From NCBI GenBank assembly GCA_002255905.1, contig NKIN01000002.1, positions 186,001-250,000 of the forward strand: a DNA stretch of 64,000 nt. The letters are read 5' to 3'. This DNA comes from Burkholderiales bacterium PBB1 (GTDB lineage Bacteria; Pseudomonadota; Gammaproteobacteria; Burkholderiales; Burkholderiaceae_C). Below are positions 6,052 through 31,201 of the stretch, piece after piece. Position 1 is the stretch's first letter, and each line of letters starts with the position of its first letter. The position numbers and the translations under genes were made by a program. The notes under the pieces were generated by a model, which ran no database searches, was not told the DNA's origin, and saw only the letters and a program-made list of their open reading frames with translations.

Positions 6052-6166
6052 GGGGCGGTGGCGTGGGGTGTGCCCGGTGCGAGGCGCAGGGACGAAGACC
6101 GCATTGTCCAAGATGGCGGCACTGCCATGGCCGCCGTCGTCAGTGACGGCGAGACATGCCGGTGGT

Positions 6167-7834: not shown

Positions 7835-7837
7835 GGC

Positions 7838-8251: not shown

Positions 8252-8281
8252 GACCTCGGTCCTCGTTGCAGCAGAAATGAC

Positions 8282-10516: not shown

Positions 10517-10517
10517 C

Positions 10518-12518: not shown

Positions 12519-12882
12519 ACTGTCCTCGTTCGATCGTCATGTCGTGCGTCTGGCGGGAAGCTGCAGCGTCGCGTTGCGCCTGTTCGGGTGAGTGGCGGCG
12601 CGCTCAGCTGATGCCGCTCGTGGCGCGCTCGGCAATCCCGACCCGGAACGCACTATATGCGTGAACCATGGGTAGCCACCGAGCCAAGCCTGCGTGGCGG
12701 GATGCTGGAGCGCAGAACTGAATCGCTGCTGAAGCCCGGGGCGTCGCGGTCTTTACAGCCGTGGTTTGGTGCGGGCGCAGACCGAAGTTAGACTGCCACC
12801 GGCTGACCGTGCCGGTCTGATCGATCCCCCGGGCGTCGTGTGATGCCATCTGAAACACGACAGTCGAAGAACAGCCACCTGT
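12519..12882. other. Divergent intergenic region between shc and hpnH
   Basis: This 364-bp stretch separates two divergent hopanoid genes and must carry promoters for both. I see no convincing -35/-10 pair, no long inverted repeat, and no supported open reading frame. The region includes AT-richer spots near 12650 (ACTATATGCG) and 12753-12775, which could host promoter elements, but I would not assign them. Confidence 0.5.
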
Positions 12883-14022
12883 ATGAGCATCCCCTTCAAG
12901 CAGAAACTGAGTGTCGGCGCGTATGTCGTCAAGCAAAAGCTCCTGGGCAACAAGCGTTACCCGCTGGTGCTGATGCTGGAGCCGCTGTTTCGCTGCAACC
13001 TGGCCTGTGCCGGCTGCGGCAAGATCGATTACCCGGAAGACATCCTTGACAAGCGGCTGAGCGTGGCCGAGTGCCTGGAGGCGGTCGACGAGTGTGGCGC
13101 ACCGGTCGTGTCGATTCCCGGCGGTGAGCCGCTGCTGCACAAGGAAATGCCCGAGATCGTGCGCGGCATCGTCGCCCGCAAGAAATTCGTCTATCTGTGC
13201 ACCAACGCGCTGCTGCTCAAGAAGCGCATGGATGACTACACGCCGTCGCCGTATCTGACCTTTTCGGTGCACCTAGACGGCGACCGCGAACGCCACGACG
13301 AAGCAGTGTGTCAGGAGGGCGTTTACGACCGCGCCGTCGAAGCCATCCAGCTGGCGCTCGCGCGGGGCTTCCGGGTCAGCGTCAACTGCACCCTTTTCAG
13401 CGGCGAGACCCCTGAGCGCGTTGCTGCCTTCCTGGACTCCCTGGTGGATCTGGGCGTGGAGGCAGCCACCATTTCACCTGGGTTCAGTTACGAGCGGGCG
13501 CCGCAACAGCACGTGTTCCTGCAGCGTCAGGCCACCCGGCAGTTGTTCCGGGACATCTTCAAGCTGGGTGCCACACGCCGTGGTGCGCGCCGATGGCGAC
13601 TGAACCACTCCAGCCTGTACCTCGATTTCCTGGCAGGCAACCAGAACTACCAGTGCACGCCTTGGGGCAGCCCGGCGCGCAATGTGTTCGGCTGGCAGAA
13701 GCCCTGCTACCTGATGGCCGACGAAGGCTACGCACCCACCTTTGCCGCGCTGATGAAGGAGACGCCCTGGGAGAAGTACGGCTCCAGCAGCAATCCCAAG
13801 TGCGCCCAGTGCATGGCGCATTGCGGGTACGAGCCGACGGCGGTGAATGCGGCAATGGCCAATCCGCTGAAGGCCGCCTGGGTCGCGCTGCGCGGGCCGC
13901 GCACCAGCGGCCCGATGGTCGACAACGATGTGCCGACCCCACCGGCCAGTGGTGCCCGCGAGTACCCCGTGCACCTGATGATGAAGGCGCCTTCGGAGGA
14001 GACGACCGCCCCCCATCGTTGA
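12883..14022 (+). CDS. hpnH: Adenosyl-hopene transferase HpnH (radical SAM)
   Basis: A 379-residue radical SAM enzyme. The [4Fe-4S] motif CNLACAGC gives Cys38, Cys42 and Cys45, preceded by LVLMLEPLFR, and is followed by GGEPLLH, the SAM-binding GGE-type motif. The C-terminus holds CTPWGSPARNVFGWQKPCYL and CAQCMAHCGYEPTAV, with the Cys set of the SPASM-like extension typical of HpnH. The enzyme adds the 5'-deoxyadenosyl group to diploptene to form adenosylhopane, the first step of side-chain extension. The product is the substrate for HpnG, encoded divergently. Length matches the family. Confidence 0.94.
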   Translation: MSIPFKQKLSVGAYVVKQKLLGNKRYPLVLMLEPLFRCNLACAGCGKIDYPEDILDKRLSVAECLEAVDECGAPVVSIPGGEPLLHKEMPEIVRGIVARKKFVYLCTNALLLKKRMDDYTPSPYLTFSVHLDGDRERHDEAVCQEGVYDRAVEAIQLALARGFRVSVNCTLFSGETPERVAAFLDSLVDLGVEAATISPGFSYERAPQQHVFLQRQATRQLFRDIFKLGATRRGARRWRLNHSSLYLDFLAGNQNYQCTPWGSPARNVFGWQKPCYLMADEGYAPTFAALMKETPWEKYGSSSNPKCAQCMAHCGYEPTAVNAAMANPLKAAWVALRGPRTSGPMVDNDVPTPPASGAREYPVHLMMKAPSEETTAPHR

Positions 14023-14348: not shown

Positions 14349-14936
14349 ATGACCGCCACCTCCACGCCGCAAGATGAAGCGGCGATGCGCATCGCGCTCG
14401 ACCAGGCACACAACGCGTGGCTGGTCGGTGAGGTGCCGGTGGGCGCGGTGATCCTGCGCGCTGGACAGGTGATCGCCACCGGCTACAACCGCCCGATCAC
14501 CGAGCACGATCCGACCGCGCACGCCGAGATCGTGGCGCTGCGCCACGCCGCCACACTGCTGGGCAACTACCGTCTGCCCGAATGCGAGCTGTATGTGACG
14601 CTGGAGCCGTGCGCGATGTGTGCGATGGCGCTGCTGCACGCGCGCTTCAAGCGAGTGGTGTTCGGTGCAGCCGATCCGAAGACGGGCGCTGCCGGGTCGG
14701 TGATCGATCTGTTTGCCCAGCCGCAGCTGAACCACCACACGCAGATCCAGGGAGGCGTGATGGCCGAGTCCTGCAGTGCGGTGTTGCGAGACTTCTTTGC
14801 CGAGCGGCGCGAACAGTACCGGCAGCGGCGTGCCGCCCCGGTGTCGGAGGGCGAATCGGGCTTGCCGGATGCCGATGCGTCCTCCATCCCGGCTGGCGAG
14901 GCGCTCGAACTGCCGCCTGCCACCGACGTGCTCTGA
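14349..14936 (+). CDS. tadA: tRNA adenosine(34) deaminase TadA
   Basis: A 195-residue zinc-dependent deaminase converting A34 to inosine in tRNA-Arg(ACG), which allows decoding of CGU/CGC/CGA. The catalytic HAE (His58-Ala59-Glu60) sits in DPTAHAEIVALR, and the zinc Cys pair in PCAMC (Cys88, Cys91). GNYRLPECELYVTLEPCAMC and FGAADPKTGAAGSV are typical of TadA. The domain ends near residue 165; about 30 extra residues form an acidic, low-complexity tail without known motif. The start ATG at 14349 gives the expected N-terminus. The LD-carboxypeptidase gene follows after eight bases, so tadA may be transcribed into the peptide-uptake locus. Confidence 0.94.
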   Translation: MTATSTPQDEAAMRIALDQAHNAWLVGEVPVGAVILRAGQVIATGYNRPITEHDPTAHAEIVALRHAATLLGNYRLPECELYVTLEPCAMCAMALLHARFKRVVFGAADPKTGAAGSVIDLFAQPQLNHHTQIQGGVMAESCSAVLRDFFAERREQYRQRRAAPVSEGESGLPDADASSIPAGEALELPPATDVL

Positions 14937-14944
14937 ACAACGCG

Positions 14945-15931
14945 ATGACCTCCCTGATCCTTTACAGCCCGTCCGGTGTCGTCGCGGCGGCGCCGTTGCG
15001 CCGTGCGGCGCGGCGTCTCGCGGCGCTGGGCTACGAGGTCGAGATCGACGCCTCGGCACTGGCGAAGCATCAGCGCTTCGCCGGCGACGACGACACCCGC
15101 CTCGCGGCGCTGCACCGCGTGGCCGAGCGCGCGCCTGACATCGCGATGGCCACGCGCGGTGGCTACGGCCTGACCCGGCTGCTCGACCGCATCGACTGGC
15201 CGCTAATCCACCGCAGCATCGGGTGCGGTACGCGCTGGGTCGGACACAGCGACTTCACCGCGTTCCAACTCGGCTTGCTGGCGCACACGAAAGGCGCAGG
15301 CAAGGGTGCTGCGACCTGCCTGGCGCACGGCCACGACGATGACCATGCTCACCACCACCCCGACCACCCCGCGCGAGGGGTGGTGGGTCTGACCTGGGCC
15401 GGGCCGATGGCCTGCGGTGATTTCGGTGGCGAAGCGGTCGACGACATCACCGAGCCGTGTTTTGTGGAAGCGATGAGCGGTGCGCTGGAGGCGGTGGGTT
15501 TCCGCACCGAAGCAGGCTTCGACGGCTTGTCAGCACGCGGCATCTTGTGGGGTGGCAACCTGTGCATGCTCACCTCGCTGCTCGGTACCGCGCACTGGCC
15601 GAAGGCGGCGACCACCCGTGGCGGCATCCTTTTCCTGGAAGACGTGAACGAGCACCCCTACCGCGTCGAGCGCAGCCTGCTGCAGCTGCAGCAGGCTGGC
15701 GTGCTCGACGGGCAGAAGGCGGTGCTGCTCGGTGATTTCAGCGGCTATCGCCGCTCGCCACTCGATCGGGGATACACGCTCAAGACGGCCATCGCGCAGC
15801 TGCGCAGCCTGACGAAGACGCCCATCCTCACCGGTCTGCCGTTCGGTCATGTGCCCACCAAGGTGACGATGCCGGTCGGCGCCAAGGTCGAACTGCAGGT
15901 GCAAGGGCGCGACGTGCTGGTCGGCTGGTGA
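14945..15931 (+). CDS. ldcA: LD-carboxypeptidase (LdcA/MccF, peptidase S66) with His/Asp-rich insert
   Basis: A 328-residue cytoplasmic serine peptidase of the S66 family, which removes the terminal D-Ala from murein tetrapeptides (LdcA) or cleaves peptide-nucleotides (MccF). RGGYGLTRLLDRIDW forms the front. The nucleophile is Ser102 in GHSDFTAFQ, and Glu and His lie in FLEDVNEHPYR and GLPFGHVPTKV. Between LLAHTKG and GLTWAGPM there is an insert of about 30 residues with seven His and four Asp within residues 128-141. I do not expect this in the family; it could bind metal. There is no signal peptide. The stop overlaps the start of the ABC binding-protein gene, so it belongs to that operon. 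Confidence 0.9.
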   Translation: MTSLILYSPSGVVAAAPLRRAARRLAALGYEVEIDASALAKHQRFAGDDDTRLAALHRVAERAPDIAMATRGGYGLTRLLDRIDWPLIHRSIGCGTRWVGHSDFTAFQLGLLAHTKGAGKGAATCLAHGHDDDHAHHHPDHPARGVVGLTWAGPMACGDFGGEAVDDITEPCFVEAMSGALEAVGFRTEAGFDGLSARGILWGGNLCMLTSLLGTAHWPKAATTRGGILFLEDVNEHPYRVERSLLQLQQAGVLDGQKAVLLGDFSGYRRSPLDRGYTLKTAIAQLRSLTKTPILTGLPFGHVPTKVTMPVGAKVELQVQGRDVLVGW

Positions 15932-18138
15932 TGCGTGGCGTCGTCGGCGCCGGGCTGATCGCGCTGGCGAGCCTGTGCGCCGGCTGCAACAACAACCCGC
16001 TGCCCGACGGTGCGGCGGCGTCCAACACCCTGTTCACCGCCGTGTCCGGCAGTTCACCGCGGCACCTCGACCCGACCGCTTCGTACTGGAGCAACGAGAC
16101 GCCGTACACCTACCAGATCTACGAGCCACCCTATGGCTACCACTACCTGAAGCGGCCGTTCGTGTTGGTGGGCAAGGCGGCGGTCGAGGTGGCGCAGCCC
16201 CGGTACCTCGACAAGAACGGTCAGCCGTTGCCCGCTGAGGCGCCCGCGGCCGAGATCGCCGAAAGTGTCTACGACGTGCACATCAAGCCCGGCATCCGAT
16301 ACCAGCCGCACCCGGCGTTCGCGACCGATGCGCAGGGGCATTACCTCTATCACGCGCTGAAGCCGGGCGAACTCGGCGACCGCCGCTCGCCATGGCAGTT
16401 CGAACACCAGGGCACGCGCGAACTGGTGGCCGAGGACTATGTCTATGCGCTCAAGCGCCAGGCCACAACGCGCATCACCACACCGATCTACGGCATCTTC
16501 TCGGAATACGTGCTCGGTCTCAAGGACTACGGCGCGCTCATCAAGGCCGAGGACGCCAAGCTGCGCGCAGGGCTCGATCCGGCCGCGCGCGACAAGCCCT
16601 TTCTCGACTTCCGGAAGTGGCTGCTGATCGGCGCCACCGCACCCGAGAAGCACCTGCTGCGCATCCGCATCAAGGGCAAGTACCCGCAGTGGAGCTACTG
16701 GATGTCGCTGACCTTCATGGCCCCGGTGCCCTGGGAAGCCGACGCTTTCTATGCGCAGCCCGGCATGGCGGCCAACGGTCTGTCGCTCGACACCTGGCCC
16801 GTGGGCACGGGGCCGTACATGATGACCGAGTCGGTGCAGGACACGCGGCACGTGATGAAACGCAACCCGAACTACCGCGGCGAGCCCTATCCGTGTGAAG
16901 GTGTCGAGGCCGACCAAACCAACGGCATGCTGGCCGACTGCGGCAAGGCCACCCCGTTCGTCGACACCATCGTCGCGGTGATCGAGAAAGAGGGCGTGCC
17001 GCTGCGTGCCAAGTTCCGCCAGGGCTATTACGACGTGCCGCGCATCGAGCGGGTCGATGATGGGCTGGAATTCCTGGTCGAGATGGATGACTCCGAAGAC
17101 GTGCGCCGTGACTACACCGCGCGGGGTTTCCAGCTGCCGAAGTTTGCCGACGTGACCTCCTGGTACCTGGGCTTCAACATGCTCGACCCGGTGATCGGCC
17201 TTGGCGACACGCCCGAACGACAGGCGAAGAACCGAAAGCTGCGCCAGGCGATCTCGATCGCGATCGACTGGGAGGAATACAGCCGCATCTTCCCGAAGAG
17301 CGCCGGCGAAACCGCGATGGGCCCGCTGCCCGATGGCATCTTCGGTTCGCGCCACGGCCAGCCGCAGGGCGTCAACCCCGTGACGCATCGCCTGATCGAT
17401 GGCAAGGTGGTGCGCCGCCCGATCGCCGATGCGAAGAGGCTGCTGGCCGAGGCTGGCTATCCCGATGGCCGGGATGCCGCAACTGGCCGCCCGCTGGTGC
17501 TGAACTACGACTATTACAACCAGCCCACGCCCGAGGTGAAGTCGCAGCTCGACTGGATGGTCAAGCAGTTCGCGAAGATCGACGTGCAGCTCGAAATCCG
17601 CGCCACCGACAACAACCAGTTCCAGGACAAGGTGCGCAAGGGCAAGCACCAGATCTTCTGGTCGGGCTGGCTGGCCGATTACCCCGACGCCGAGAACTTC
17701 CTGTTCCTGCTGTACGGCCCGAACGCGAAATCGACCTCCGACGGCGAGAACACCGCGAACTACGCCAACCCCGAGTACGACGCGCTGTTCGCGCAGCTCA
17801 AGGGCGTCGACGACGGCCCCGAAAAGCAGGCGCTGATCGACCGGATGACGGCGATCGTCCAGCAGGATGCCCCGTGGTCCTTCGGCTATTTCCCGTATTC
17901 GTCGGGCGCGTTCCAGTCCTGGGTTCACAACGCCAAGCCGGCGGTGCTGGTGCGCGACATGGCGCGCTACATCCGCATCGATGCGGCCGAGCGGGCGCGG
18001 CGCCAGGCCGAATGGAACAAGCCGGTGTGGTGGCCGATCGGGCTCGGGGCTGCGGGGTTGATCGCGATTGTGTGGCTGGCCTTGCGCAGCTTCCGCCGGC
18101 GCGAGCGGGTCGACGCACGCGGCGTGGTGCTGTCATGA
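15931..18138 (+). CDS. ABC-transporter solute-binding protein, family 5 (peptide), lipoprotein with C-terminal membrane helix
   Basis: A 735-residue extracytoplasmic binding protein of the oligopeptide (SBP_bac_5) class. The N-terminus is a lipoprotein signal with lipobox LCAGC. Family marks are SPRHLDPTASYWSNE, then AEDYVYALKRQA, PVGTGPYMMTESVQDTRHV, KNRKLRQAISIAIDWEEY, and YPDAENFLFLLYGPN. It is longer than E. coli YejA (about 600), which it resembles in style. The last 40 residues contain a clear membrane helix (WWPIGLGAAGLIAIVWLALRSF) followed by RRRER, so the C-terminus should cross the inner membrane. The start ATG overlaps the ldcA stop by one base. A peptide substrate is inferred from the class. 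Confidence 0.9.
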   Translation: MRGVVGAGLIALASLCAGCNNNPLPDGAAASNTLFTAVSGSSPRHLDPTASYWSNETPYTYQIYEPPYGYHYLKRPFVLVGKAAVEVAQPRYLDKNGQPLPAEAPAAEIAESVYDVHIKPGIRYQPHPAFATDAQGHYLYHALKPGELGDRRSPWQFEHQGTRELVAEDYVYALKRQATTRITTPIYGIFSEYVLGLKDYGALIKAEDAKLRAGLDPAARDKPFLDFRKWLLIGATAPEKHLLRIRIKGKYPQWSYWMSLTFMAPVPWEADAFYAQPGMAANGLSLDTWPVGTGPYMMTESVQDTRHVMKRNPNYRGEPYPCEGVEADQTNGMLADCGKATPFVDTIVAVIEKEGVPLRAKFRQGYYDVPRIERVDDGLEFLVEMDDSEDVRRDYTARGFQLPKFADVTSWYLGFNMLDPVIGLGDTPERQAKNRKLRQAISIAIDWEEYSRIFPKSAGETAMGPLPDGIFGSRHGQPQGVNPVTHRLIDGKVVRRPIADAKRLLAEAGYPDGRDAATGRPLVLNYDYYNQPTPEVKSQLDWMVKQFAKIDVQLEIRATDNNQFQDKVRKGKHQIFWSGWLADYPDAENFLFLLYGPNAKSTSDGENTANYANPEYDALFAQLKGVDDGPEKQALIDRMTAIVQQDAPWSFGYFPYSSGAFQSWVHNAKPAVLVRDMARYIRIDAAERARRQAEWNKPVWWPIGLGAAGLIAIVWLALRSFRRRERVDARGVVLS

Positions 18139-18169
18139 CGTCTCGGATGCCGCCGCAGCGGAGTCGGCG

Positions 18170-19153
18170 ATGCTGAGCGCCATCGTCCGCCGCATCGCCT
18201 ATGGTGTGCTGATCCTGATCGGGGTGAACCTGGCAACCTTCTTCCTGTTTTTCACCGTCAACACGCCGGACGACATGGCGCGCTTGAATATCGGTGGCAA
18301 ACGGGTGACGCAGGAGCAGATCGACAAGTGGAAGGTCGAGCGCGGCTACGACAAGCCGCTGTACGTGAACCCGGCACGACAGGGCAGCGAGCGCTACACC
18401 GACACGATCTTCTGGGAGCGTTCGGTGTCGCTGTTCACGCTGAACTTCGGTCGTGCCGATGCCGAGAGCGCGGGCGACATCGGTCACCAGGTGAGTTCGC
18501 GGATGGCGGTCAGCCTGCAACTCGCGCTGCCGCTGTTCATCCTGCAGGTGATTGCAAGCACCGCGTTCGCGCTGCTGCTGGTGATGTTTCGGCAGACCCG
18601 CTTCGATGCCTGGGGCGTCGTGCTGTGCGTGGTGCTGTTGTCGATCTCGAGCCTGTTCTACATCATCGTCGGGCAGTTCTTCTTCTCGCGCGTGCTGCGG
18701 CTGGCGCCGATCTCGGGCTATGCGCCCGGGCTCGATGCGGTCAAGTTCCTGCTGCTGCCGATCGCGCTGTCACTGTTCGCCCGGTTGGGTGGCGAGGCGC
18801 GGCTTTACCGCGCGATGTTCCTCGAGGAAACCGGCAAGGACTATGTGCGCACCGCCCGCGCCAAGGGCCTGAGCGAGCCGCGCGTGCTGAGCGCCCATGT
18901 GCTGCGCAACGCGCTGATCCCCATCGTCACCAGCGCCGGTGGCTATCTGCCGTATGTGTTCCTCGGCAGCCTGGTGTTCGAGAGTTTCTTCGGCCTGCCA
19001 GGGTTGGGCGCGTATGTGATCGACGCGATCAGCAACCAGGACTTCGCGGTCGTGCGCACGATGGTGTTCCTGGGCTCGCTGCTCTATGTGCTGAGCTACA
19101 TCGTGATCGACATCGCCTACACCTGGATCGATCCGCGGGTGCGCCTGACATGA
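18170..19153 (+). CDS. ABC transporter permease, DppB/YejB type
   Basis: A 327-residue inner-membrane permease. The N-terminus MLSAIVRRIAYGVLILIGVNLATFFLFF is the normal first helix of DppB/YejB proteins. The C-terminal half carries the transmembrane core and the EAA loop: YRAMFLEETGKDYVRTARAKGLSEPRVLSAHVLRNALIP, followed by LGSLVFESFFGLPGLGAYVIDAI. It forms the channel with the next permease. The start was taken as the ATG at 18170, 31 bases after the binding-protein stop, because it gives the family N-terminus. The gene ends in ATGA, sharing four bases with the next gene. Confidence 0.92.
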   Translation: MLSAIVRRIAYGVLILIGVNLATFFLFFTVNTPDDMARLNIGGKRVTQEQIDKWKVERGYDKPLYVNPARQGSERYTDTIFWERSVSLFTLNFGRADAESAGDIGHQVSSRMAVSLQLALPLFILQVIASTAFALLLVMFRQTRFDAWGVVLCVVLLSISSLFYIIVGQFFFSRVLRLAPISGYAPGLDAVKFLLLPIALSLFARLGGEARLYRAMFLEETGKDYVRTARAKGLSEPRVLSAHVLRNALIPIVTSAGGYLPYVFLGSLVFESFFGLPGLGAYVIDAISNQDFAVVRTMVFLGSLLYVLSYIVIDIAYTWIDPRVRLT

Positions 19154-20616
19154 ACCTCATGCTGCCGAAGTTCGTGCTGCTGTGGACCGACGCGGTGATG
19201 TGGGCACTGGCGGCCGCGTTGCTGGTCTACGCCCGCGTCGTCTGGCGCAGCCCGACGTTGCGCGCGAGCTGGACGCTGGTGTTCCGCGATGCGGCGGCCT
19301 TCGCCTCAGCGATCGTGCTTGGACTGTGCCTGGTGCTGACGCTGCTCGACAGCGTGCATTTCCGCCGCGCGTTGCCAGCAGGGGTGGGCAGCGAAGCGGC
19401 TGCGTCAGCGGTGGCCTACGACACCCGCACGCAATCGCTGCTCGATGCGCTGCTCGTGCGCCTGGTCGATTCCCGCGAAGCGACCTATTCGCGGCCGCTG
19501 GCCTACCAGAGCTTCACGCTCGAATCGCTGACGGTCGATGGCGAAGTGCGCCGGCTGCCGCCTCGCCTGCTGCACGGCGGTGCGCACTTGAGCGACCCGG
19601 CGACGCAATGGTCCGCGGACATCGCGCTGCGCGTGGCGGCGGGCTTGGTCGTCGGCGCGGTTGTCGCGTTGCTGTTGAGCGCCTGGACCGTGCGCGGTGT
19701 GGCTCGCCGCCATGGTTGGGCGTGGCGCGAGGCCGCGGCGCGCGTGTGGCGTGACGACTGCGATATCCGCTGGCGTGCCGCGCTGATGATGGTCACGGGC
19801 CTGTGCCTGCTGGCCGGCCCGGCCGCGCTGCTGATGCACGACTACCACCTGCTCGGCACCGATCGCACCGGCAACGATGTGTTCTACCAGGCGCTGAAAA
19901 GCATCCGCACCGCCTTCGTCATCGGCACGCTGGCCACCATCGCCACACTGCCGCTGGCGGTGGGCCTGGGGCTGATGGCGGGCTACTTCAAGGGCTGGGT
20001 CGACGAGGCCATCCAGTACCTCTACACCGTGCTGTCGTCGGTGCCGAATGTGCTGCTGATCGCGGCCTGTGTGCTGATGGTGCAGGTGTTCCTCGACCAG
20101 CATCCCGAGCTGTTCGAGACCGGCGCCGAGCGCGCCGACCTGAAGCTGTTCCTGCTCTGCGCCATCCTCGGCCTCACCGGCTGGGCCGGGCTGTGCCGCC
20201 TGCTGCGTGCCGAAGCCTTGAAGCTGCGCGAGCTGGAATACGTGCAGGCAGCGACTGCGTTCGGTGTCGGCCCGTGGCGCATCCTCGCGCGCCACCTGAT
20301 GCCCAACGTGATGCACCTGGTGCTGATCACCACCGTGCTCGATTTTTCCGGGCTGATCCTCTACGAAGCGGTGCTGTCGTATGTGGGCGTGGGCGTCGAC
20401 CCGTCGATGAACAGTTTCGGCGGCATGATCAACTTGGCACGCAGCGAGATGAGCCGCGACCCGGTGGTGTGGTGGTCGTTCGCAGCGGCCTTCGGCTTCA
20501 TGGTCACGGTGGTGCTGGCGGCCAACTTCTTCGCCGACGGCGTGCGCGATGCCTTCGATCCGCGGGCGCGGGTGTTCCGGGCCCGGCGCGCGCCGGCGCC
20601 GGTCAAGGCGGGCTGA
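19150..20616 (+). CDS. ABC transporter permease, DppC/YejE type with long N-terminal extension
   Basis: A 488-residue permease. Residues from about 235 on form the standard domain: LLGTDRTGNDVFYQALKSIRTAFVIG, LGLMAGYFKGWVDEAIQYLYTVLSSVPNVLLI, an EAA loop with LRELEYVQAATAFGVGPWRILARHLMPN, and LSYVGVGVDPSMNSFGGMI. E. coli YejE is about 340 residues, so this protein has roughly 150 extra residues. These include helices near residues 8-30 and 48-66, a periplasmic part with VAYDTRTQSLLDALLVRLVDSREATYS, and another helix near 168-186. It overlaps the preceding permease by four bases. A gap of six bases separates it from the ATPase gene. Confidence 0.9.
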   Translation: MNLMLPKFVLLWTDAVMWALAAALLVYARVVWRSPTLRASWTLVFRDAAAFASAIVLGLCLVLTLLDSVHFRRALPAGVGSEAAASAVAYDTRTQSLLDALLVRLVDSREATYSRPLAYQSFTLESLTVDGEVRRLPPRLLHGGAHLSDPATQWSADIALRVAAGLVVGAVVALLLSAWTVRGVARRHGWAWREAAARVWRDDCDIRWRAALMMVTGLCLLAGPAALLMHDYHLLGTDRTGNDVFYQALKSIRTAFVIGTLATIATLPLAVGLGLMAGYFKGWVDEAIQYLYTVLSSVPNVLLIAACVLMVQVFLDQHPELFETGAERADLKLFLLCAILGLTGWAGLCRLLRAEALKLRELEYVQAATAFGVGPWRILARHLMPNVMHLVLITTVLDFSGLILYEAVLSYVGVGVDPSMNSFGGMINLARSEMSRDPVVWWSFAAAFGFMVTVVLAANFFADGVRDAFDPRARVFRARRAPAPVKAG

Positions 20617-20622
20617 ACCGCG

Positions 20623-22572
20623 ATGCTGACGATCACCGATCTGAAGGTGGCGATCGACGCCGATGCCGGCCTGATCCGTGCGATCGATGGGCTGTCGCTG
20701 TGCATCGAACGCGGCGAAACCTTTGCGCTGGTCGGCGAATCCGGCTGCGGCAAGAGCATGACGGCGCTGGCGCTGATGCGGCTGCTGCCCGACAACGGCC
20801 GCGTCACCGACGGCCGTGTCGAGATCGAGGGGCAGGAGACGCTGTCGCTGCCCGAATCGGCGATGCGCCGGCTGCGCGGTGGCCGCATCGGCATGATCTT
20901 CCAGGAGCCGGCGACCAGCCTGAACCCGGTGATGCGGGTGGGCGACCAGATCGTCGAGGCGATCGAGACGCACACGGCCTTGCGCGGTGCCGCGGCGCGG
21001 GCCAAAGCGATGGAGTGGCTGGGCCGCGTTGGCATCCCCGAGCCCGAGCGACGCATCGACGATTACCCGTTCCGCATGAGCGGCGGACAGAAACAGCGGG
21101 TGATGATCGCGATCGCCCTGGCCGCCGAACCGGCATTCCTCGTGGCCGACGAACCCACCACCGCGCTCGATGTCGCGATCCAGGCGCAGATTCTCGAGTT
21201 GCTGAAGCAGCTGCAGCGCGAGCAGGGCATGGGCCTGCTGCTGATCACGCACGACCTGGCCGTGGTGTCGGGCATGGCGCAGCGGGTCGCGCTGATGTAC
21301 GCGGGGCAGATCGTCGAGGTGGCCAGCGCGGCTGAGTTCTTCAACGAGCCGAAGCATCCGTATGCGCGGCTGTTGCTGCAGTCACTGCCCGAAGCGCAGA
21401 AGCGCGGCACGGCGCTCGCTGCGATCGCGGGCACGGTGCCGTCGCTGTCTCAAGCCTTCATCGGCTGTCGCTTTGCGCCACGCTGTGACCGGGCCTTCGA
21501 TCGCTGTAGCAGCGAGGCGCCGGTGCTGCTGCCGCCGATGACTTTGGCGCAGGACCCGGCGCTGCCGCTGCGTGAAGTTCGTTGCTGGTTGCATGTGTCG
21601 CCGACAGGAGCCGAAGCAGCCGACGCGGTCAGCGGGCGTGCCGCATCCGTCAGCGCGGCCACCGCCCCGCAGGCTGTGTCCAGCTTGCTGCCGAGCGATC
21701 AGTTGCTCCTCGATGTGCAGCACCTGTCGGTGCGCTTCCCGATCCGCACCGGCGTGTTTCAGCGCGTCAGCTCGCATGCGGTGGCGGTGGCCGATGTGTC
21801 GCTACAGATCCGCCGCGGCGAGACCTTTGCACTGGTCGGCGAGTCGGGCTGCGGCAAGACCACGCTGGGCAAAGCCATCGTGCAGTTGCTGCGCGGTCAG
21901 GCACAGATTGAAGGCCGGGTGCTGCTCGAAGGGCAAGACCTGTTCGGCCTGCAAGGCGAGGCGCTGAGGCTGGCGCGGCGCTCGGTGCAGATGATCTTCC
22001 AGGACCCCTACGCGTCGCTGAACCCGCGGATGCGGGTGCTCGATCTGCTGGAGGAAGGTGTGTTGACGCTGCGCCCTGAACTCGACGCAGCCGCACGGCG
22101 CGCGCTGCTCGAATCGCTGGTCGAGCGCGTCGGCCTGCGTCGCGAGGCGCTGCAGCGCTATCCGCATGAGTTTTCCGGCGGACAGCGGCAACGCATCGCG
22201 ATCGCGCGCGCACTGGCCGTGGAGCCCCGGCTGATCATCTGCGACGAGCCGACCTCGGCGCTGGATGTGTCGGTGCAGGCCCAGATCCTGAACCTGCTGA
22301 AGCAGCTGCAGCGCGAGCTGGGCCTGTCCTACCTGTTCATCACCCATCACCTGGGCGTGGTCGAATACATTGCCGACCACGTGGCGGTGATGCACCGCGG
22401 GCGCATCGAGGAAACGGGGCCGACGGCCGCCCTGCTGGCCAACCCGCGCGAGGCCTACACCCGCCGGCTGCTGGCCGCGGTGCCGCGATTGCTCAGGCGC
22501 TCATCGCAGGCGGTGTCGATCAGTGACATCCACGCCGCCACACGCGACCAGAACACGGGCCCAGAAGAATGA
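20623..22572 (+). CDS. Fused double ATP-binding subunit of peptide ABC importer
   Basis: A 649-residue protein with two complete ABC domains. Domain 1 has Walker [10 protein letters not shown], signature MSGGQKQR, Walker [13 protein letters not shown] and switch His in [10 protein letters not shown]. It ends with the oligopeptide-family extension containing Cys residues ([15 protein letters not shown]). Domain 2 has Walker [10 protein letters not shown], signature FSGGQRQR, Walker [13 protein letters not shown] and [16 protein letters not shown]. This is the DppD-DppF or YejF arrangement in one chain; a linker of about 60 residues rich in Ala separates the halves. The gene's ATGA end overlaps the receptor gene start, showing tight coupling with the outer-membrane component. 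Confidence 0.93.
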
Positions 22573-25382
22573 ACGGGGGAGGCGAGGTGAAAGACAGCGG
22601 CAACAGCAAGCACCGGCGCGTCAGCGCGTACCCGTGGGTCATCGTGATGGCTTGTAGTCTGGTCTGCGACTCGGTGTGGGCGCAGCAGACGCTGGAGCGC
22701 GTGGAGATCACCGGCTCGTCGATCCGCCGCATCGATGCCGAATCGGCGCTGCCGGTGCAAGTCATCAAGCGAGACGAGATCGAGCGCAGCGGCTACACCT
22801 CCACCGCGGACCTGATCAAGAACCTGCCTGCGGTGATGGGCTCGTCGGTCGAATCCGGCACCGTGGGTTCGGAGACCTACGGCTTTGCCGGCGTGTCGAT
22901 CCACGGCATTGGCGAGGGGCGCACGCTGGTGCTGCTCAACGGGCGGCGGCTGGCGCGGTTCGGGGGACAGTTCCTCACCGGTGACCAGAACGCCATCGAC
23001 CTGAACAGCATCCCGATCTCGGCGATCGAGCGCATCGAGATCCTGACCGATGGTGCCTCGGCGTTGTACGGCTCCGATGCGATCGGCGGTGTCGTCAACT
23101 TCATCACCCGGCGCGGCAGCACGCAGGGCTCGGCGAGTGTCGGTGTTTCACTGCCGCGTGCCGGTGCGCGCGAGACCAATGTCAGCGTGACGCAGGGCAT
23201 CGGCGACTACGACAGCGATGGCTACAACGTGATGCTCTCGGCCAGCGCCGATCGCCGCACCCAGTTGGCGGCCACGGCCCGCAAGTTCGCCCGCACCGGC
23301 GAGATCTTCTTCACCGAAGGCGGGCAGCGTTATCGATTTCTGGCCGCCTCCGGCTTCAGCATCCCGGCGAATGTGCTGGACGCCGATTTCAACCCGATCA
23401 ACCCGTCTCTGGCCGCGAACGGCCGATGCCCCGACCAGCATGTCGTGCTCGGTGCCGGTTGCGCCTACGACTTCGTTGCGGACCAGGAGATCTACCCCGA
23501 CCGACAGCGGCAGAGCCTGGTCACGTCGTTCGATCGCCGACTCGACGGTGGCGCGAAGCTGTTCGGTGATCTGGTGTACTCACGCAGCCGTTCGCGCGGA
23601 ACGGTGTCTTACAACTCCACCGAATTCGCGATCGCCCCCAGCTCGCCTTATTTCGGCCAGGCCCTGGCGGCCGGTGGCTACAACAACACCGATCCGGATC
23701 AGGGTGACCTGGGCGTGCTGGCCGACTACCGCGTCACCGATCTCGGCCGGCGCGTGACCGACGACCGCGCCGAGGCAGTCCATGCCGTGCTGGGTGTCGA
23801 GGGGCAGATCGGCCGCTGGGACCTGAACCTGGCCTACACACACAGTCAGAGCGTGGTACGGGGCAGCCTGGACAGCGGCTATGCGCTCAACAGCCGCATG
23901 CTCACTGCGCTGAACACCGTGGTCGATCCGTTTGCGTTGCTAGGTCAGCAGTCGCTGGCGGGTCAACAGGCGCTGGCCGACGCGCGCTACACCGGCTACT
24001 GGAATGGCGGCAAATCGACCCTTGACGGTATCGAGCTTCGCGGCACCACCGAGCTCAGGGCGCTGGCGGGCGGGCCGATGCAACTGGGCACCGGGGCCAG
24101 CTTCTTTCGCGAGCGGTACAACTCGCGGCCCAGCGCTCTGGCGCAAGGGCTGGGGGGCGAGACGCGTTTTGGCGACAACGCGGCCGAGGTACCGTCGTCG
24201 GGTGCGCGCAATGTCATCGGTGTGTACGCTGAACTGCTGGCGCCCGTGACCAAGGACGTGGAGCTGACATTGGGCCTGCGACACGACCACTATTCGGAGT
24301 TCGGCGACACCACCAACGCGAAGCTGTCGGCACGCTGGCAACCGGCACCGGGGCTGCTGATCCGTGGCTCGGTCGGCAGCGGCTACAAGGCGCCGTCGAT
24401 CCTGCAGGTGAAGGCCTCGCGCCAGCTGTTCGGGCTGAGCTCGATCTTTGTCGACTGCAGCGCACCTGACCGCAACGGCGTCACGCTCAACGACGTCGCG
24501 GCCTCGTTCGGCCCCGGTGTGGTCTGCCCCAACGGCAAGCAGGCCGACGTGATAGCGCAGGGCAACCGCAAGCTCAAGCCCGAGCGCTCGACCCAGGCCT
24601 CGCTCGGGCTGCGCATCGAACCCGTGCCGGCGCTGTCGTTCGGTGCCGATTACTGGATGGTCGGGCTCTACAACGCGATCGGGCAGATCGATCCGTCGGC
24701 CATCGTCGACGACCTGAATGCCAACCGTGGCAGCTTCACCACCGCCGTGAATGCCGGCACCGGCGTCACCCAACTGGCCTTTTTCACGCCCAATCTGAAT
24801 CAGGGCAAGGCGTTCAAGTCCGGCATCGACTTCGATGTCGTCGGTCGCGCCAACCTGTCGCGCCTGGGCCAACTGACCTCCCAACTGACCTCCCAGCTGA
24901 GCGCCACCTACCTGCTGCGCGATCAGTACCAGATCGTGGCCGGCGGTCCCTATTCGAGCAGCCTCGGGCGTTTCGGTGACGACGGCACGGTGAGCTTCCG
25001 CTGGCAGGCCCGCTGGGTCAACACCATCGAGCTCGGCAGCACGACGCACACGCTGGTGCTGAACTACAAGTCAGGCTATCGCGACCCGGACGTTGCCGCC
25101 AGCGCCTACGTGAACCGGGTCAACGCCGACGGATCGATCGGCGACGCAGTGGACTCGCTGACGCGCCGGGTGTCCGACAACCTCACCGTGGACTGGCAGA
25201 CCCGGTGGCGCGTGATGCCGCAGCTCGATCTGAACGTCGGCCTGATCAATGTGTTCGACCAGGATCCCCCACTGTCGCTCGCGGTCGGTGGGCTGAAGCA
25301 GGGCTTTCAGGTCGGCTATGACGATCGCTACTACGATCCCCGTGGTCGCACCGTGTATGCGAACCTGAACTACCGGTTCTGA
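22569..25382 (+). CDS. TonB-dependent outer-membrane receptor
   Basis: A 937-residue receptor. A signal peptide (WVIVMACSLVCDSVWAQ) is followed by a TonB box-like LERVEITGS, then the plug: LPVQVIKRDEIERSGYTSTADLIKNLPAV, TLVLLNGRRLARFG, IERIEILTDGASALYGSDAIGGVVNFITR. The beta-barrel has many alternating strands, and ends in an aromatic residue (NYRF), as needed for barrel assembly. The plug style is that of the large receptors of Xanthomonas and other proteobacteria that import sugars or peptides, not of classical siderophore receptors. It overlaps the ABC ATPase gene by four bases and is followed by tonB-exbB-exbD-exbD, so ligand and partners should be dedicated. A 12-bp tandem duplication lies at 24869-24892. 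Confidence 0.93.
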   Translation: MNGGGEVKDSGNSKHRRVSAYPWVIVMACSLVCDSVWAQQTLERVEITGSSIRRIDAESALPVQVIKRDEIERSGYTSTADLIKNLPAVMGSSVESGTVGSETYGFAGVSIHGIGEGRTLVLLNGRRLARFGGQFLTGDQNAIDLNSIPISAIERIEILTDGASALYGSDAIGGVVNFITRRGSTQGSASVGVSLPRAGARETNVSVTQGIGDYDSDGYNVMLSASADRRTQLAATARKFARTGEIFFTEGGQRYRFLAASGFSIPANVLDADFNPINPSLAANGRCPDQHVVLGAGCAYDFVADQEIYPDRQRQSLVTSFDRRLDGGAKLFGDLVYSRSRSRGTVSYNSTEFAIAPSSPYFGQALAAGGYNNTDPDQGDLGVLADYRVTDLGRRVTDDRAEAVHAVLGVEGQIGRWDLNLAYTHSQSVVRGSLDSGYALNSRMLTALNTVVDPFALLGQQSLAGQQALADARYTGYWNGGKSTLDGIELRGTTELRALAGGPMQLGTGASFFRERYNSRPSALAQGLGGETRFGDNAAEVPSSGARNVIGVYAELLAPVTKDVELTLGLRHDHYSEFGDTTNAKLSARWQPAPGLLIRGSVGSGYKAPSILQVKASRQLFGLSSIFVDCSAPDRNGVTLNDVAASFGPGVVCPNGKQADVIAQGNRKLKPERSTQASLGLRIEPVPALSFGADYWMVGLYNAIGQIDPSAIVDDLNANRGSFTTAVNAGTGVTQLAFFTPNLNQGKAFKSGIDFDVVGRANLSRLGQLTSQLTSQLSATYLLRDQYQIVAGGPYSSSLGRFGDDGTVSFRWQARWVNTIELGSTTHTLVLNYKSGYRDPDVAASAYVNRVNADGSIGDAVDSLTRRVSDNLTVDWQTRWRVMPQLDLNVGLINVFDQDPPLSLAVGGLKQGFQVGYDDRYYDPRGRTVYANLNYRF
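24869..24892 (+). repeat. Tandem 12-bp duplication inside receptor gene
   Basis: The 12-mer CCAACTGACCTC occurs twice in direct tandem, followed by a degenerate third copy (CCAGCTGA). It is in frame and adds the residues QLTS twice in the barrel region. A replication-slippage origin is likely. It does not disturb the frame. Confidence 0.75.
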
Positions 25383-25406
25383 GGTTTCCGATCCCCGCCG
25401 TTGCCG

Positions 25407-26090
25407 ATGGATTTTTCTCGACCTGCCGACGATCCGCGTCGCCATGCATGGGGGCTGGGCATCGTCGTCCTGCTGCACGTGCTGGTGATCTACGCGCTGG
25501 TGAACGGGCTGGCGCGGCAAGCCATCGATGGGGTGCGTGTGCCGGTGGTGGCACGGTTGATCGAAGAGGTTGTCCCGCCGCCACCGCCACCCCCATCGCC
25601 GCCGCCTGCTGCGGTGGTGGCGCCGGTGAAGCGCCTGCCACCGCCACCGGCGGTCGTGCCGCCGCCAGAGGTCGCCGTGGCGCCTCCGATTGAGGTCGCT
25701 CCCACCATCACCGCTGCCCCTGTGCCCCCTGTTCCCGTGCCGCTCGAGCTGCCGACTGCGCTGCCGACGGCGGCGATCGAGTCGGCGGCCCCTGCCTCGG
25801 GGGTGGGTCGGCCGCAGGTGCTGGCCGCCGGCATTGCCTGCAGCCGCACGCCACCGCCGGTGGCGCCGAGCGTGTCCACCGAGATCAAGGGCAGCCTGTT
25901 CGTGATCGGCACCTTGAAGGCCGGACGGGTGGTGCAGGTCGACATCGACCGCAACACGCTGAAGGGCGTGCCTGACCGGCGCACGATGCGTGCCTTCATC
26001 AACGCCGTCGAGGTGGCGATGAAGGAGGGCTATGTGTGCACCGGCGATGGCGTGCAGATCCGCCAGGAATTCTTTTTCGACATCCAATGA
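25407..26090 (+). CDS. TonB-like energy transducer, proline-rich
   Basis: A 227-residue protein with TonB layout. The short cytoplasmic N-terminus leads into one membrane helix (residues about 15-34, LGIVVLLHVLVIYALVNGLA) with a His as in TonB. A proline-rich spacer follows, from residue 57 (seven Pro in a row, then SPPP), and a C-terminal alpha/beta domain from about 155. That domain is divergent: STEIKGSLFVIGTLKAGRVVQVDI and FINAVEVAMKEGYVCTGDGVQIRQEF align in style with the TonB fold, but the common YP motif is missing. Cys145 and Cys211 could form a disulfide in the periplasm. It sits 24 bases after the receptor gene and before exbB, which supports the call. Confidence 0.85.
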   Translation: MDFSRPADDPRRHAWGLGIVVLLHVLVIYALVNGLARQAIDGVRVPVVARLIEEVVPPPPPPPSPPPAAVVAPVKRLPPPPAVVPPPEVAVAPPIEVAPTITAAPVPPVPVPLELPTALPTAAIESAAPASGVGRPQVLAAGIACSRTPPPVAPSVSTEIKGSLFVIGTLKAGRVVQVDIDRNTLKGVPDRRTMRAFINAVEVAMKEGYVCTGDGVQIRQEFFFDIQ

Positions 26091-26114
26091 CGGCCTCGTG
26101 GCCGCACCTCTCCG

Positions 26115-26939
26115 ATGAACAAGCCCTTGTCTGACGATTTCCGCTTCACTTTCGAGCGGACCCTGCGCCACTGGGCCTGCGGCCTGCTGGTGGGCCTCGC
26201 CTCGCTGGGGGTACAAGCGCAGGAACCCGCACAGCCGACCGTGGTGGCAGCCGCGTCGGGTCTCACCCAGACCGTGGTCGACAACCCCTACGGCCTGGCT
26301 GCGCTGTGGGCACAGGGGGACTGGGTGGCCCGGGGCACCCTGCTCATCCTGGTGCTGATGAGCGTGGGCAGCTGGTACATCCTGGTCACGCGATTGGCCG
26401 CGAGCCTGAAGTTGAGCGCCGAGGCCCGATCGGTGCGGCAAAGCTTCTTCAAGGCGACCACGCTGAGTGCAGGTGTGGCCACACTGGGGGCGGGCAGCGC
26501 CTTCCGCTACATCGCCGAGGCCGGCATCAACGCCCGCGAGCACCACGAGGGCACGCTGACCGAGCACATCGATCGCAACACCTGGATCACGATGAGCGTG
26601 CAGCGCAGCGTCGACGAGGTCCAGTCGCGGCTGCAGGGCGGCCTGGCGGTGCTGGCCACGGTGGGCTCGACGGCGCCGTTCGTCGGGTTGTTCGGCACCG
26701 TCTGGGGCATCTACCACGCACTGACCGCCATTGGCATTGCCGGTCAGGCCAGCATCGACAAGGTGGCGGGCCCGGTGGGTGAAGCCCTGATCATGACGGC
26801 CATCGGCCTGGCCGTGGCGGTGCCGGCGGTGCTGGGCTACAACGCGCTGGTACGCCGCAACAAGGTCACGATGGACGCGGTGCGCGGCTTTGCGGCCGAC
26901 CTGCATGGCATCCTGCTCGGCGCGAAGACCCTGCGCTGA
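26115..26939 (+). CDS. exbB: ExbB-type proton channel protein
   Basis: A 274-residue MotA/TolQ/ExbB protein. An N-terminal hydrophobic stretch (residues about 18-36) with AQEPAQP after it resembles a signal segment seen in longer ExbB forms. The three core helices are TLLILVLMSVGSWYILVTRLA, GLAVLATVGSTAPFVGLFGTVWGIYHAL, and ALIMTAIGLAVAVPAVLGYNALVR. The conserved GSTAPFVGLFGTVWGI and the helix 3 Thr/Ala pattern are those of active channels. With ExbD it uses proton flow to drive TonB. It is part of the dedicated set behind the receptor; a second exbB lies at 31202-31837. Confidence 0.92.
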   Translation: MNKPLSDDFRFTFERTLRHWACGLLVGLASLGVQAQEPAQPTVVAAASGLTQTVVDNPYGLAALWAQGDWVARGTLLILVLMSVGSWYILVTRLAASLKLSAEARSVRQSFFKATTLSAGVATLGAGSAFRYIAEAGINAREHHEGTLTEHIDRNTWITMSVQRSVDEVQSRLQGGLAVLATVGSTAPFVGLFGTVWGIYHALTAIGIAGQASIDKVAGPVGEALIMTAIGLAVAVPAVLGYNALVRRNKVTMDAVRGFAADLHGILLGAKTLR

Positions 26940-26969
26940 GCGACGGTTTCAACACCACAGCACCGGCCC

Positions 26970-27395
26970 ATGGCTCTTCAATTGCGCTCCGGCAGCGACG
27001 ACGACGAGGTCAACGCCAGCATCAACACCACGCCGCTGGTGGATGTGATGCTGGTGCTGTTGATCATTTTTCTGATCACCATTCCGGTGGTCAGGCAGAC
27101 GGTGCCGATGTCGCTGCCCAAAGAGGTCAACCAGCCCCGTCAGACCAAGCCCGAGAACATCGAGATCTCGGTCGATCGTGACGGTCGCGTCTACTGGAAC
27201 GCACAGCCGCTGGCCGACGCTGCGGCGCTGGTCGAGCGGCTGAAGGTCGAGGGCGCGAAGCAGCCGCAGCCCGAGGTGCAGGTGCGCGGTGACGAGAAGA
27301 CGCGCTACGAGGCGGTGGGCCGCGTGGTCTACGTGTGCCAGCGCGCGGGCATCGCCAAGGTCAGCTTCGTCACCGAACCACCACCGAAATCCTGA
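26970..27395 (+). CDS. exbD: ExbD/TolR-family protein (ExbD1)
   Basis: A 141-residue protein with one N-terminal membrane helix, preceded by INTTPLVDVMLVLLIIFLITIP, which contains the essential Asp of ExbD within PLVD. The periplasmic domain includes IEISVDRDGRVYWNAQPLADAAALVERL and VGRVVYVCQRAGIAKVSFVTEP, typical of ExbD. It couples to ExbB (30 bases upstream) and TonB. A second ExbD is encoded 28 bases downstream, so this set has two ExbD proteins that may form mixed dimers or serve separate functions. Confidence 0.92.
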   Translation: MALQLRSGSDDDEVNASINTTPLVDVMLVLLIIFLITIPVVRQTVPMSLPKEVNQPRQTKPENIEISVDRDGRVYWNAQPLADAAALVERLKVEGAKQPQPEVQVRGDEKTRYEAVGRVVYVCQRAGIAKVSFVTEPPPKS

Positions 27396-27423
27396 GCCCG
27401 TTCCACACCGAGAAGCGCATTCC

Positions 27424-27849
27424 ATGGCCATGAACATCGGCTCTGCCCGCAGCGACGAACCCGAGGTGATGATGGACATCAACACCACGCCGCTGATCGA
27501 CGTGATGCTGGTGCTGATCATCATGCTGATCATCACCATCCCTGTACAACTGCACGCGGTGAATCTGAACATGCCGCAGGCGAGCGAGGCGCCACCAGTG
27601 AAGCCGGCGGTGGTGACGCTGGTCATCGAGGCCGACGGCACGCTGCGCTGGAATGGCGAGGTGCTGGCCGACCGGGCAGCCCTGGAGACACGCTTGAAGA
27701 CGGCAGCCGCTCAGGCACAGCAGCCCGAGCTGCACCTGAGGGCGAACAAGGCGGTCGACTACGGTGTCGTCGCGATGGTGCTGGCGAGCGCGCAGCGGCT
27801 GGGCATGACCCAGCTGGGTCTGGTGGGCAACGAGCAGTTCGCACCCTGA
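27424..27849 (+). CDS. Second ExbD/TolR-family protein (ExbD2)
   Basis: A 141-residue ExbD homologue. The helix region is MMDINTTPLIDVMLVLIIMLIITIP, again with the key Asp in PLID, followed by a periplasmic domain with VVTLVIEADGTLRWNGEVLADRAALETRL. It differs from ExbD1 in the periplasmic half. The order tonB-exbB-exbD1-exbD2 is the one described for Xanthomonas campestris, where ExbD2 is not needed for iron uptake; similarity of function here is only an inference. It is the last gene of the plus-strand run and is followed by a stem-loop terminator shared with adk. Confidence 0.9.
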   Translation: MAMNIGSARSDEPEVMMDINTTPLIDVMLVLIIMLIITIPVQLHAVNLNMPQASEAPPVKPAVVTLVIEADGTLRWNGEVLADRAALETRLKTAAAQAQQPELHLRANKAVDYGVVAMVLASAQRLGMTQLGLVGNEQFAP

Positions 27850-30754: not shown

Positions 30755-31195
30755 TCAACGGCCCGCCTCGGGCGTGTGGCGTTGTGCGGCGAAGGTCAGG
30801 CGCGGCAGGCCCGCGCGCCGCGCGGCGTCCATCACGTTCACCACCGACTGATAGGCTGCGGTTGCATCTGCCGACACGATCACTGGCGTGTCGCCTGGCC
30901 CGCCGGCGGCCTTGCCAAGTTCGAGCGTCAGCAGCTCGACACTGCGGCCGTCCACCGCGCGGCCATTGACGGCATAGCGGCCGTCGGCCGCCACGGCGAC
31001 GATCACCTCGCGGTCGCGGTCGCGGTCGCGCGACTTGTCGGCATCGGCTGCGGGCAGATTGACCTGCAACTCGGTGAACTTGGAGTAGGTGGTCGACAGC
31101 ATCAGGAAGATCAGCACCACCAGCAGCACGTCGATGAACGGGATCAGGTTGATCTCCGGTTCTTCCGGCCGTGCCTTGCGGAAGTTCATCGCCAT
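30755..31195 (-). CDS. exbD: ExbD/TolR-family protein (housekeeping set)
   Basis: A 146-residue ExbD-type protein: MNFRKARPEEPEINLIPFIDVLLVVLIFLM contains the membrane helix with the key Asp in PFID. The periplasmic part has VSADATAAYQSVVNVMDAARRAGLPRLTF. After the helix comes a charged repeat (RDRDRDRE) encoded by a hexanucleotide repeat at 31011-31028. It is co-directional with exbB (six bases apart) and lpxK. This exbB-exbD-lpxK arrangement is usual in Burkholderiales, so this is likely the general energy-coupling set, distinct from the set at 26-28 kb. Confidence 0.92.
   Translation of the reverse strand: MAMNFRKARPEEPEINLIPFIDVLLVVLIFLMLSTTYSKFTELQVNLPAADADKSRDRDRDREVIVAVAADGRYAVNGRAVDGRSVELLTLELGKAAGGPGDTPVIVSADATAAYQSVVNVMDAARRAGLPRLTFAAQRHTPEAGR
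31011..31028 (+). repeat. Hexanucleotide repeat within exbD
   Basis: CGGTCG is repeated three times with part of a fourth copy. On the coding strand it encodes the alternating Arg-Asp stretch just after the membrane helix. Changes in copy number would stay in frame and change only linker length and charge. Confidence 0.7.
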
Positions 31196-31201
31196 GGCCG
31201 G

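Follow-up and report, generated by a model that had tools for sequence, protein, structure and literature searches.

A conserved gene neighbourhood in Burkholderiales that probably encodes a TonB-powered route for short-peptide uptake, with a receptor that varies between genomes

This analysis concerns ten adjacent genes at positions 14945..27849 of a 64,000-nucleotide stretch of Burkholderiales bacterium PBB1 (assembly GCA_002255905.1, contig NKIN01000002.1, positions 186,001 to 250,000 of the forward strand), referred to below as the window. The + strand carries all ten open frames, and their order is that of a first-pass annotation, which had described ten co-directional genes with three overlaps and had read them as a single TonB-powered path for uptake and processing of a peptide, possibly derived from murein. 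The open frames bear out this arrangement and Pfam bears out the gene families, the TonB-like gene excepted. Based on gene context, the ten genes probably form a single energised path by which a short peptide crosses both membranes. The genes, followed by the upstream neighbour tadA, are:

14945..15931, + strand: ldcA, S66 LD-carboxypeptidase (PF17676 112 bits, PF02016 70 bits)
15928..18138, + strand: family-5 solute-binding protein with a lipobox-like LCAGC and a C-terminal hydrophobic segment (PF00496 139.5 bits)
18170..19153, + strand: OppB-like permease (PF00528, PF19300)
19150..20616, + strand: OppC-like permease with an N-terminal extension of ~230 residues (PF00528 at residues 271-474 only)
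20623..22572, + strand: fused ATPase with OppD- and OppF-like halves (ABC_tran and oligo_HPY, two stretches each)
22569..25382, + strand: TonB-dependent outer-membrane receptor (Plug 84.5 bits, TonB barrel 91.8 bits)
25407..26090, + strand: TonB-like protein with an N-terminal hydrophobic segment and Pro-rich linker, named from its position and its conservation in the locus
26115..26939, + strand: ExbB (PF01618, MotA_ExbB, 108.7 bits)
26970..27395, + strand: ExbD, first copy (PF02472 114.8 bits)
27424..27849, + strand: ExbD, second copy (PF02472 87.2 bits)
14385..14936, + strand: tadA, open frame, tRNA adenosine deaminase, named by recognition

The ldcA stop at 15931 overlaps the start of the binding-protein gene, which is either a GTG at 15928 or an ATG at 15931. 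The other two overlaps join permease to permease (19150-19153) and ATPase to receptor (22569-22572), and 8 bases separate the end of tadA from ldcA. The TonB-like frame most likely starts with the ATG at 25407. A scan for sigma-70 promoters found 0 where 1.0 was expected, and terminator-like sites (9 versus 6.3 expected) were uninformative.

The neighbourhood was then sought in other genomes. Named relatives of the binding protein occur in Burkholderiales bacterium Ga0077547 (94%), Albitalea terrae (70%), Piscinibacter, Rubrivivax, Rhizobacter and Aquincola, and they assign the window to Burkholderiales. The protein was present in 72 of 250 sampled genomes of the family (E up to 1e-100). At least 37 of these 72 carry a co-directional ExbB homologue within 15 kb (35 downstream and 2 upstream), and of the 38 genomes whose listed ExbB shares the importer's contig, just one has it far away. 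These places are the ones listed for importer-bearing genomes, a listing that does not include every second copy, so that the count of nearby ExbB genes may be low. We read 40 loci, 34 of them selected for a near ExbB and 6 not. Both ldcA and tadA lie upstream of the importer in 36, and in one of the remaining four (L258) the sequence was cut ~850 bases upstream of the binding-protein gene. In 30 loci a receptor matched our receptor profile; an additional locus, L246, has a receptor that belongs to another class and bears a carboxypeptidase-regulatory-like domain, bringing the number to 31. The full order, from ldcA through the receptor to ExbB-ExbD-ExbD, was found in 22 of the 40, and the cultured Albitalea terrae S-16 (L110) also has it.

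The same components also recur in other arrangements. Two Rhodoferax loci (L125 and L128) place ExbB-ExbD-ExbD-TonB directly upstream of the binding protein, and in two genomes (G188 and G312) the order is ExbB-ExbD-ExbD-receptor-importer. In a genome of another family (G058) the importer is followed by a receptor of 28% identity and by ExbB and ExbD proteins 24-31% identical to those of the window; no TonB was matched near that importer. Recurrence of this kind, with both order and components altered, argues most strongly for a single cargo shared by receptor, energiser and importer. Since the gene neighbourhood is found again in many genomes, it exceeds what chance would produce. The first-pass annotation had stated that its reading would fall if the gene order occurred in only one genome; similar orders recur across genera, and this refutation failed. 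What stands of its one-path proposal is thus the route from receptor to ABC importer, with neighbours that recur across genera in several orders, while its naming of the importer, considered below, does not. In the literature listings searched, the locus was not seen described. The core of the importer is ancient and widespread: of 150 genomes sampled from the order, 80 hold the binding protein (E up to 1e-40), which also occurs in named ammonia oxidisers, Pseudomonas oryzihabitans and Achromobacter.

As a whole, these results make it fairly likely that the locus is a conserved trans-envelope unit for the uptake of short peptides, with an exchangeable receptor and with murein peptides as a leading, though unproven, cargo. 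Several observations weigh against this interpretation. Among the ExbB matches listed, the gene is on another contig in 27 of the 72 genomes, has no listed place in 7 and is far away on the same contig in 1. No receptor was recognised in 9 of the 40 loci, two of these belonging to congeners (G163 and G157) in which the importer and the TonB set are retained and only remnants of the receptor are left. In other families most importers have no receptor next to them, and only 1 of 20 order-wide loci, that of G058, has a receptor with ExbB/ExbD. The best named NCBIfam models for the window receptor are cobalamin and siderophore receptors, all far below cut-off. Finally, ammonia oxidisers bear the importer though a need for scavenging is not evident in them.

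The receptor is the most changeable part of the locus. It contains both the Plug and the TonB barrel domains. For its tree we selected 29 rows out of a longer receptor list, and the profile used to read the 40 loci was made from those same rows, part of them drawn from loci that were then read. Receptors adjacent to the importer comprise several lineages; this label requires 3 changes on the tree, of which at least 2 are forced by well-supported branches. The nearest relatives outside the clade of the window receptor are in G007, G021 and G170, and no importer or S66 gene was seen close to those three receptors. The number of receptor frames also differs between loci, with two in L249, three in L258 and L265 and four in L259, some of which may be fragments. 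Within the genus, 10 of 14 congeners have the receptor. In G163 (L262, ~10130-10400) there are remnants that match window positions 24999-25074 and 25284-25491, the latter spanning the 3' end of the receptor gene into tonB, and in G157 (L263, reverse strand) a remnant matching 25296-25494 lies between ATPase and tonB. Because these remnants lie between the importer and the TonB set, these two genomes, at least, have lost the receptor through deletion. A search of plasmids with the receptor (tblastn) found best places of less than 60% identity.

These observations establish a feature that is new: the receptor slot varies, from zero to several receptors of several lineages, while the inner route persists. 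Such loss and variation point to outside selection on the receptor and speak against its being required for everything the importer does. In this group the parts that persist would be the importer, the TonB set and ldcA, with the receptor exchanged or lost, so that specificity at the outer membrane would shift while the inner route stays.

We turn now to the importer, which the first-pass annotation had called YejABEF-type. The window proteins exceed the Pfam cut-offs for SBP_bac_5, for two BPD_transp_1 permeases and for ABC_tran with oligo_HPY, the domain set of the Opp/Dpp type. A profile built from 16 binding proteins and run against solved structures scored 104.6 bits with HbpA, 85 with OppA, 75 with DppA, 53 with MppA and 24.7 with 7z8e, which we take to be YejA. 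The distant kinship with Yej binding proteins (25 bits) is therefore judged on 7z8e and not on YepA of the Agrobacterium tumefaciens system mentioned below. Against NCBIfam the binding protein reached at most 45.6 bits (best NikA, with cut-offs of at least 393), and the OppA and DppA equivalogs were not reached. For the OppB-like permease the best model is Opp2B (155 bits, cut-off 350), and the OppC-like permease reaches 184 bits (cut-off 350) in matches that begin at about residue 230; this second permease is at least 430 residues long in 115 of 115 loci. The scores with YejB (86 bits, cut-off 445) and with a YejE-type model (73.5 bits, cut-off 439) are lower than those with Opp models. The ATPase exceeds the cut-off of the NCBIfam dipeptide ATPase subfamily (551 versus 408), a match that is unspecific because the nickel and staphylopine ATPase models pass too. 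By E-value its best NCBIfam model is YejF, at 555 bits and below the cut-off of 834; the ATPase of the window is fused. The YejABEF-type assignment was accordingly rejected: the binding protein is much closer to HbpA than to 7z8e and the permeases are closer to Opp than to Yej models, though the ATPase scores best with YejF. The importer looks like a distinct Opp/Dpp-type subfamily.

Two features of the binding protein are informative about its function. In these counts, and in those of gaps and neighbours below, the unit is the locus rather than the genome, and the sets of loci overlap (e.g. L110 and L231). First, 133 of 140 loci have a C-terminal hydrophobic segment that exceeds the threshold, and 122 of 131 show a lipobox pattern. 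The conservation of the segment suggests that the protein is probably anchored in the inner membrane at its C-terminus; OppA is not known to have such an anchor. Second, the Asp of an ADY motif, which aligns to ADYNEP of OppA, is retained in 141 of 141 loci, and this residue is presumably the amine-binding Asp of MppA. Membership in the family, together with the retained Asp, supports peptide as the predicted class of cargo. In a study of MppA, an Asp binds the free amine of the murein tripeptide (PMC6022919).

With these parts a mechanism can be proposed. The receptor, opened by TonB-ExbB-ExbD-ExbD, would bring into the periplasm a peptide whose size or scarcity keeps it from entering through porins. 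There the binding protein, predicted to be held at the inner membrane by its C-terminal helix and probably also lipidated, may grip the free N-terminal amine of the peptide through the retained Asp584 of ADYPD. The permease pair and the fused ATPase, judging from what is known of the Opp/Dpp family, would import the peptide. If this were a murein tetrapeptide, LdcA could trim it and so feed Mpl; the chemistry is known for the family, and its link to this cargo is our proposal.

The N and C domains of S66 are both present in LdcA, as are the residues that we take to be its catalytic triad (Ser of GHSD, Glu of LEDVNEH and His of FGH), and no signal peptide was seen. It scores 289.8 bits with NCBIfam LdcA, under the equivalog cut-off of 378, and the solved structures closest to it bear the name muramoyltetrapeptide carboxypeptidase or murein tetrapeptide carboxypeptidase. 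It is the only S66 match in its genome. A His-rich stretch, HGHDDDHAHHHPDH, lies within ldcA at about 15320-15370 of the window; some relatives are His-rich in tails or loops elsewhere.

On one explanation, to which we give a little less than an even chance, ldcA is a mere positional neighbour, and importer and receptor take up general oligopeptides as nutrients. Twenty further S66 loci, all hand-picked, were read, and 11 of them have tadA on the strand of ldcA and no more than 1.2 kb from it; 6 of these 11 come from genomes that lack the importer, and for the other 5 the importer is on another contig. The tadA-ldcA arrangement is therefore an old pair that exists independently of the importer. 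Of 150 genomes of the order, 15 have both S66 and the importer versus 25.3 expected (Fisher p 0.0004, uncorrected for relatedness), and 64 of 79 importer genomes are without S66; this comparison left out a weak binding-protein match in G083 and a weak S66 match in G090. The gap between ldcA and the binding-protein gene has a median of 164.5 bases and exceeds 50 bases in 40 of 54 loci. Elsewhere the importer lies near other genes, named by recognition, fabI-like in 41 of 100 loci and, less often, mltD-, gloB- or rnhA-like. These data favour a neighbour without a functional tie, but they do not account readily for the adjacency of ldcA to the importer in 36 of the 40 loci read, or for its overlap with the binding-protein gene in part of the genus.

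A separate observation concerns the same pair: in L215 (G119, 4404-9436) a different importer, with permeases and ATPase of 27-41% identity, lies upstream of tadA-ldcA in the same direction.

The alternative is a murein-specific route, which we hold possible but only tentatively. Here receptor and importer would carry murein tri- or tetrapeptides or muropeptides from neighbouring cells, and LdcA would make the tripeptide that Mpl re-uses. Consistent with this, ldcA is directly upstream in those 36 loci, the 4-base overlap with the binding-protein gene occurs in the window, L107, L262 and L263 (all in the genus of the window, and seen in no other), and Mpl is encoded in the same genome. Additional support comes from other families of Burkholderiales, in which a receptor of the same broad family is directly beside an S66 gene in 5 of 10 regions (L200, L202, L203, L204 and L209). 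The ten regions were hand-picked, in part since G022 showed a receptor adjoining an S66 gene, and this figure is therefore not an unbiased rate. In four regions searched with Pfam (L200, L203, L206 and L209) we found, pooled over the four and with no single region shown to have them all, MurQ-like SIS, Amidase_2 with PG_binding_1, GHL10, S13 DD-carboxypeptidase, M15 D-Ala-D-Ala dipeptidase and SBP_bac_5; no receptor was seen in L206. The five receptor-bearing regions, of which L200, L203 and L209 are among the four searched with Pfam, are probable murein-degradation clusters.

The murein-specific route is opposed by several of the facts given above, namely the tadA-ldcA pairs in genomes without the importer (6 of 11), the co-occurrence below expectation, and the gaps, which are 50 bases or less in only 14 of 54 loci. 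In addition, we looked for a sister relation between the window receptor and the receptors of the murein loci and did not find it, the latter forming one separate clade (100/100), and the S66 proteins of those five loci have apparent signal peptides (by eye), unlike the LdcA of the window. The genome also has AmpG (an AmpG-family match of 452.7 bits, cut-off 350, at G000:C15:376306-377793). We therefore rejected the idea that the importer replaces AmpG, the role of YejBEF-YepA, and since AmpG and Mpl are both present LdcA has work without this importer.

A fuller and more speculative version may be stated, which we regard as doubtful. The locus would be the first recognised complete TonB-powered route for murein peptides from the outer membrane to the cytoplasm in a Gram-negative bacterium. 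An exchangeable receptor would pass wall peptides shed by other bacteria to a doubly anchored binding protein and ABC importer, LdcA would ready them for Mpl, and AmpG would handle the cell's own wall. Pressure from outside (phage, bacteriocin or choice of competitor) would cause the receptor to be exchanged or deleted, with the inner route kept.

Another uncertainty concerns the energiser. The ExbB and ExbD Pfam families are present. In NCBIfam, ExbB scores higher with TolQ (150, cut-off 221) than with ExbB (104, cut-off 206), and both ExbD proteins score higher with TolR, also under cut-off; the assignment to TonB rather than to Tol thus rests on context. No Pfam or NCBIfam match was obtained for the TonB-like protein of the window, and TonB_C was likewise not matched in L110 or L074. 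Its homologues in the two Rhodoferax loci give weak TonB_C matches (E 2e-4 and 0.005, both below cut-off), and the name is based on these, on position and, by eye, on the N-terminal hydrophobic segment and Pro-rich middle. Might this set be the general energiser of the cell, whose nearness to the importer means little? ExbB homologues (E up to 1e-40) occur in 235 of 250 genomes of the family, at least 163 of them without the importer, and the two congeners with receptor remnants still retain the TonB set. However, the genome of the window has 7 MotA/ExbB-family genes and 6 receptors, with one such ExbB-family gene ~6 kb from another receptor, and co-location with the importer recurs in several arrangements, in G058 with a different ExbB. 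We consider a general energiser unlikely.

Certain ExbB/ExbD genes near the importer were not counted as TonB sets. Those of L034, L036 and L146 adjoin a YbgC-like gene, the setting of tolQ-tolR, and those of L123 and L130 have TolA- or TolB-like neighbours (all by recognition). The window itself has a second ExbB/ExbD-like pair (ExbB family match) at 30755-31837 on the - strand, beside lpxK-like and kdsB-like genes named by recognition.

The least probable explanation, which we think has little chance of being right, is that the cargo is heme, cobalamin, nickel or a metallophore, some of which family-5 binding proteins also carry: the best solved relative is HbpA, named as a heme-binding protein, Dpp of E. 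coli together with a heme receptor can transport heme, and the best NCBIfam models are NikA (45.6 of 393 bits) and a B12 receptor (114 of 600 bits), but both are far below cut-off, the receptor reaches only 85.5 bits with the heme-receptor model (cut-off 316.85) and 55.7 with the siderophore model (cut-off 223.5), no Fur-like site was found in the window when two consensus patterns were matched with as many as 3 mismatches allowed, the peptide-amine Asp is retained in every locus, and an LD-carboxypeptidase would be without a role.

It is of interest to compare the proposed peptide unit with known systems. MppA is a murein tripeptide binding protein that works with the Opp permease. E. coli OppABCDF with MppA resembles the locus in its SBP_bac_5 protein, two BPD_transp_1 permeases, oligo_HPY ATPase and Asp for the peptide amine; the locus differs in that its ATPase is fused, its binding protein is larger and has a membrane segment at the C-terminus, one permease is extended by ~230 residues, and a receptor and TonB set of its own are present. 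RagAB is similar in its TonB-dependent uptake of peptide or protein, and differs in having RagB, presumably a lid protein, no counterpart of which is among the ten genes here. RagAB of Porphyromonas is reported to take up oligopeptides (PMC11817032). As described in excerpts, YejBEF-YepA of Agrobacterium tumefaciens is a muropeptide ABC importer (PMC9790009); like ours it has a fused ATPase, and it would work in the same way if the cargo here were murein, whereas our locus has a receptor and TonB attached and AmpG and LdcA are present. Finally, the passages available on the Caulobacter GlcNAc cluster group a TonB-dependent receptor with genes for inner-membrane uptake and for catabolism (PMC13046382). 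This also unites receptor, inner-membrane transporter and enzymes for a wall-related compound in one cluster; it differs in its sugar cargo and PTS permease, and TonB genes are not named in those passages.

If the peptide-uptake interpretation is right, a group of Burkholderiales has a dedicated, powered two-membrane peptide route, encoded in a conserved locus that is open to gene-by-gene knockout. It would become testable whether Gram-negative bacteria feed on the wall peptides of other cells by means of TonB. The locus would also define a subfamily of ABC importers with a membrane-anchored binding protein, and would serve as a natural experiment on how receptors are exchanged while their position stays fixed.

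Some minor observations were made on neighbouring genes and on partial loci. In one congener (L107, 13500-22208) no ATPase, receptor or TonB gene was matched past the second permease, which is followed by an opposite-strand gene resembling MTA phosphorylase (by recognition). In five Nitrosomonas loci (L153, L159, L168, L182 and L183) the first permease is followed by no match to a second permease or to the ATPase; three of these loci end ~0.7 kb or less past it. The loci with a nearby fabI-like gene include L114 and L158, and in fewer of those 100 loci the importer lies near ppiD-, lon/clpX- or mltD-gloB-rnhA-like genes, again by recognition. Just upstream in the window, at 9743-14022, are hopanoid-type genes recognised as squalene-hopene cyclase-like, HpnH-like and nucleosidase-like.

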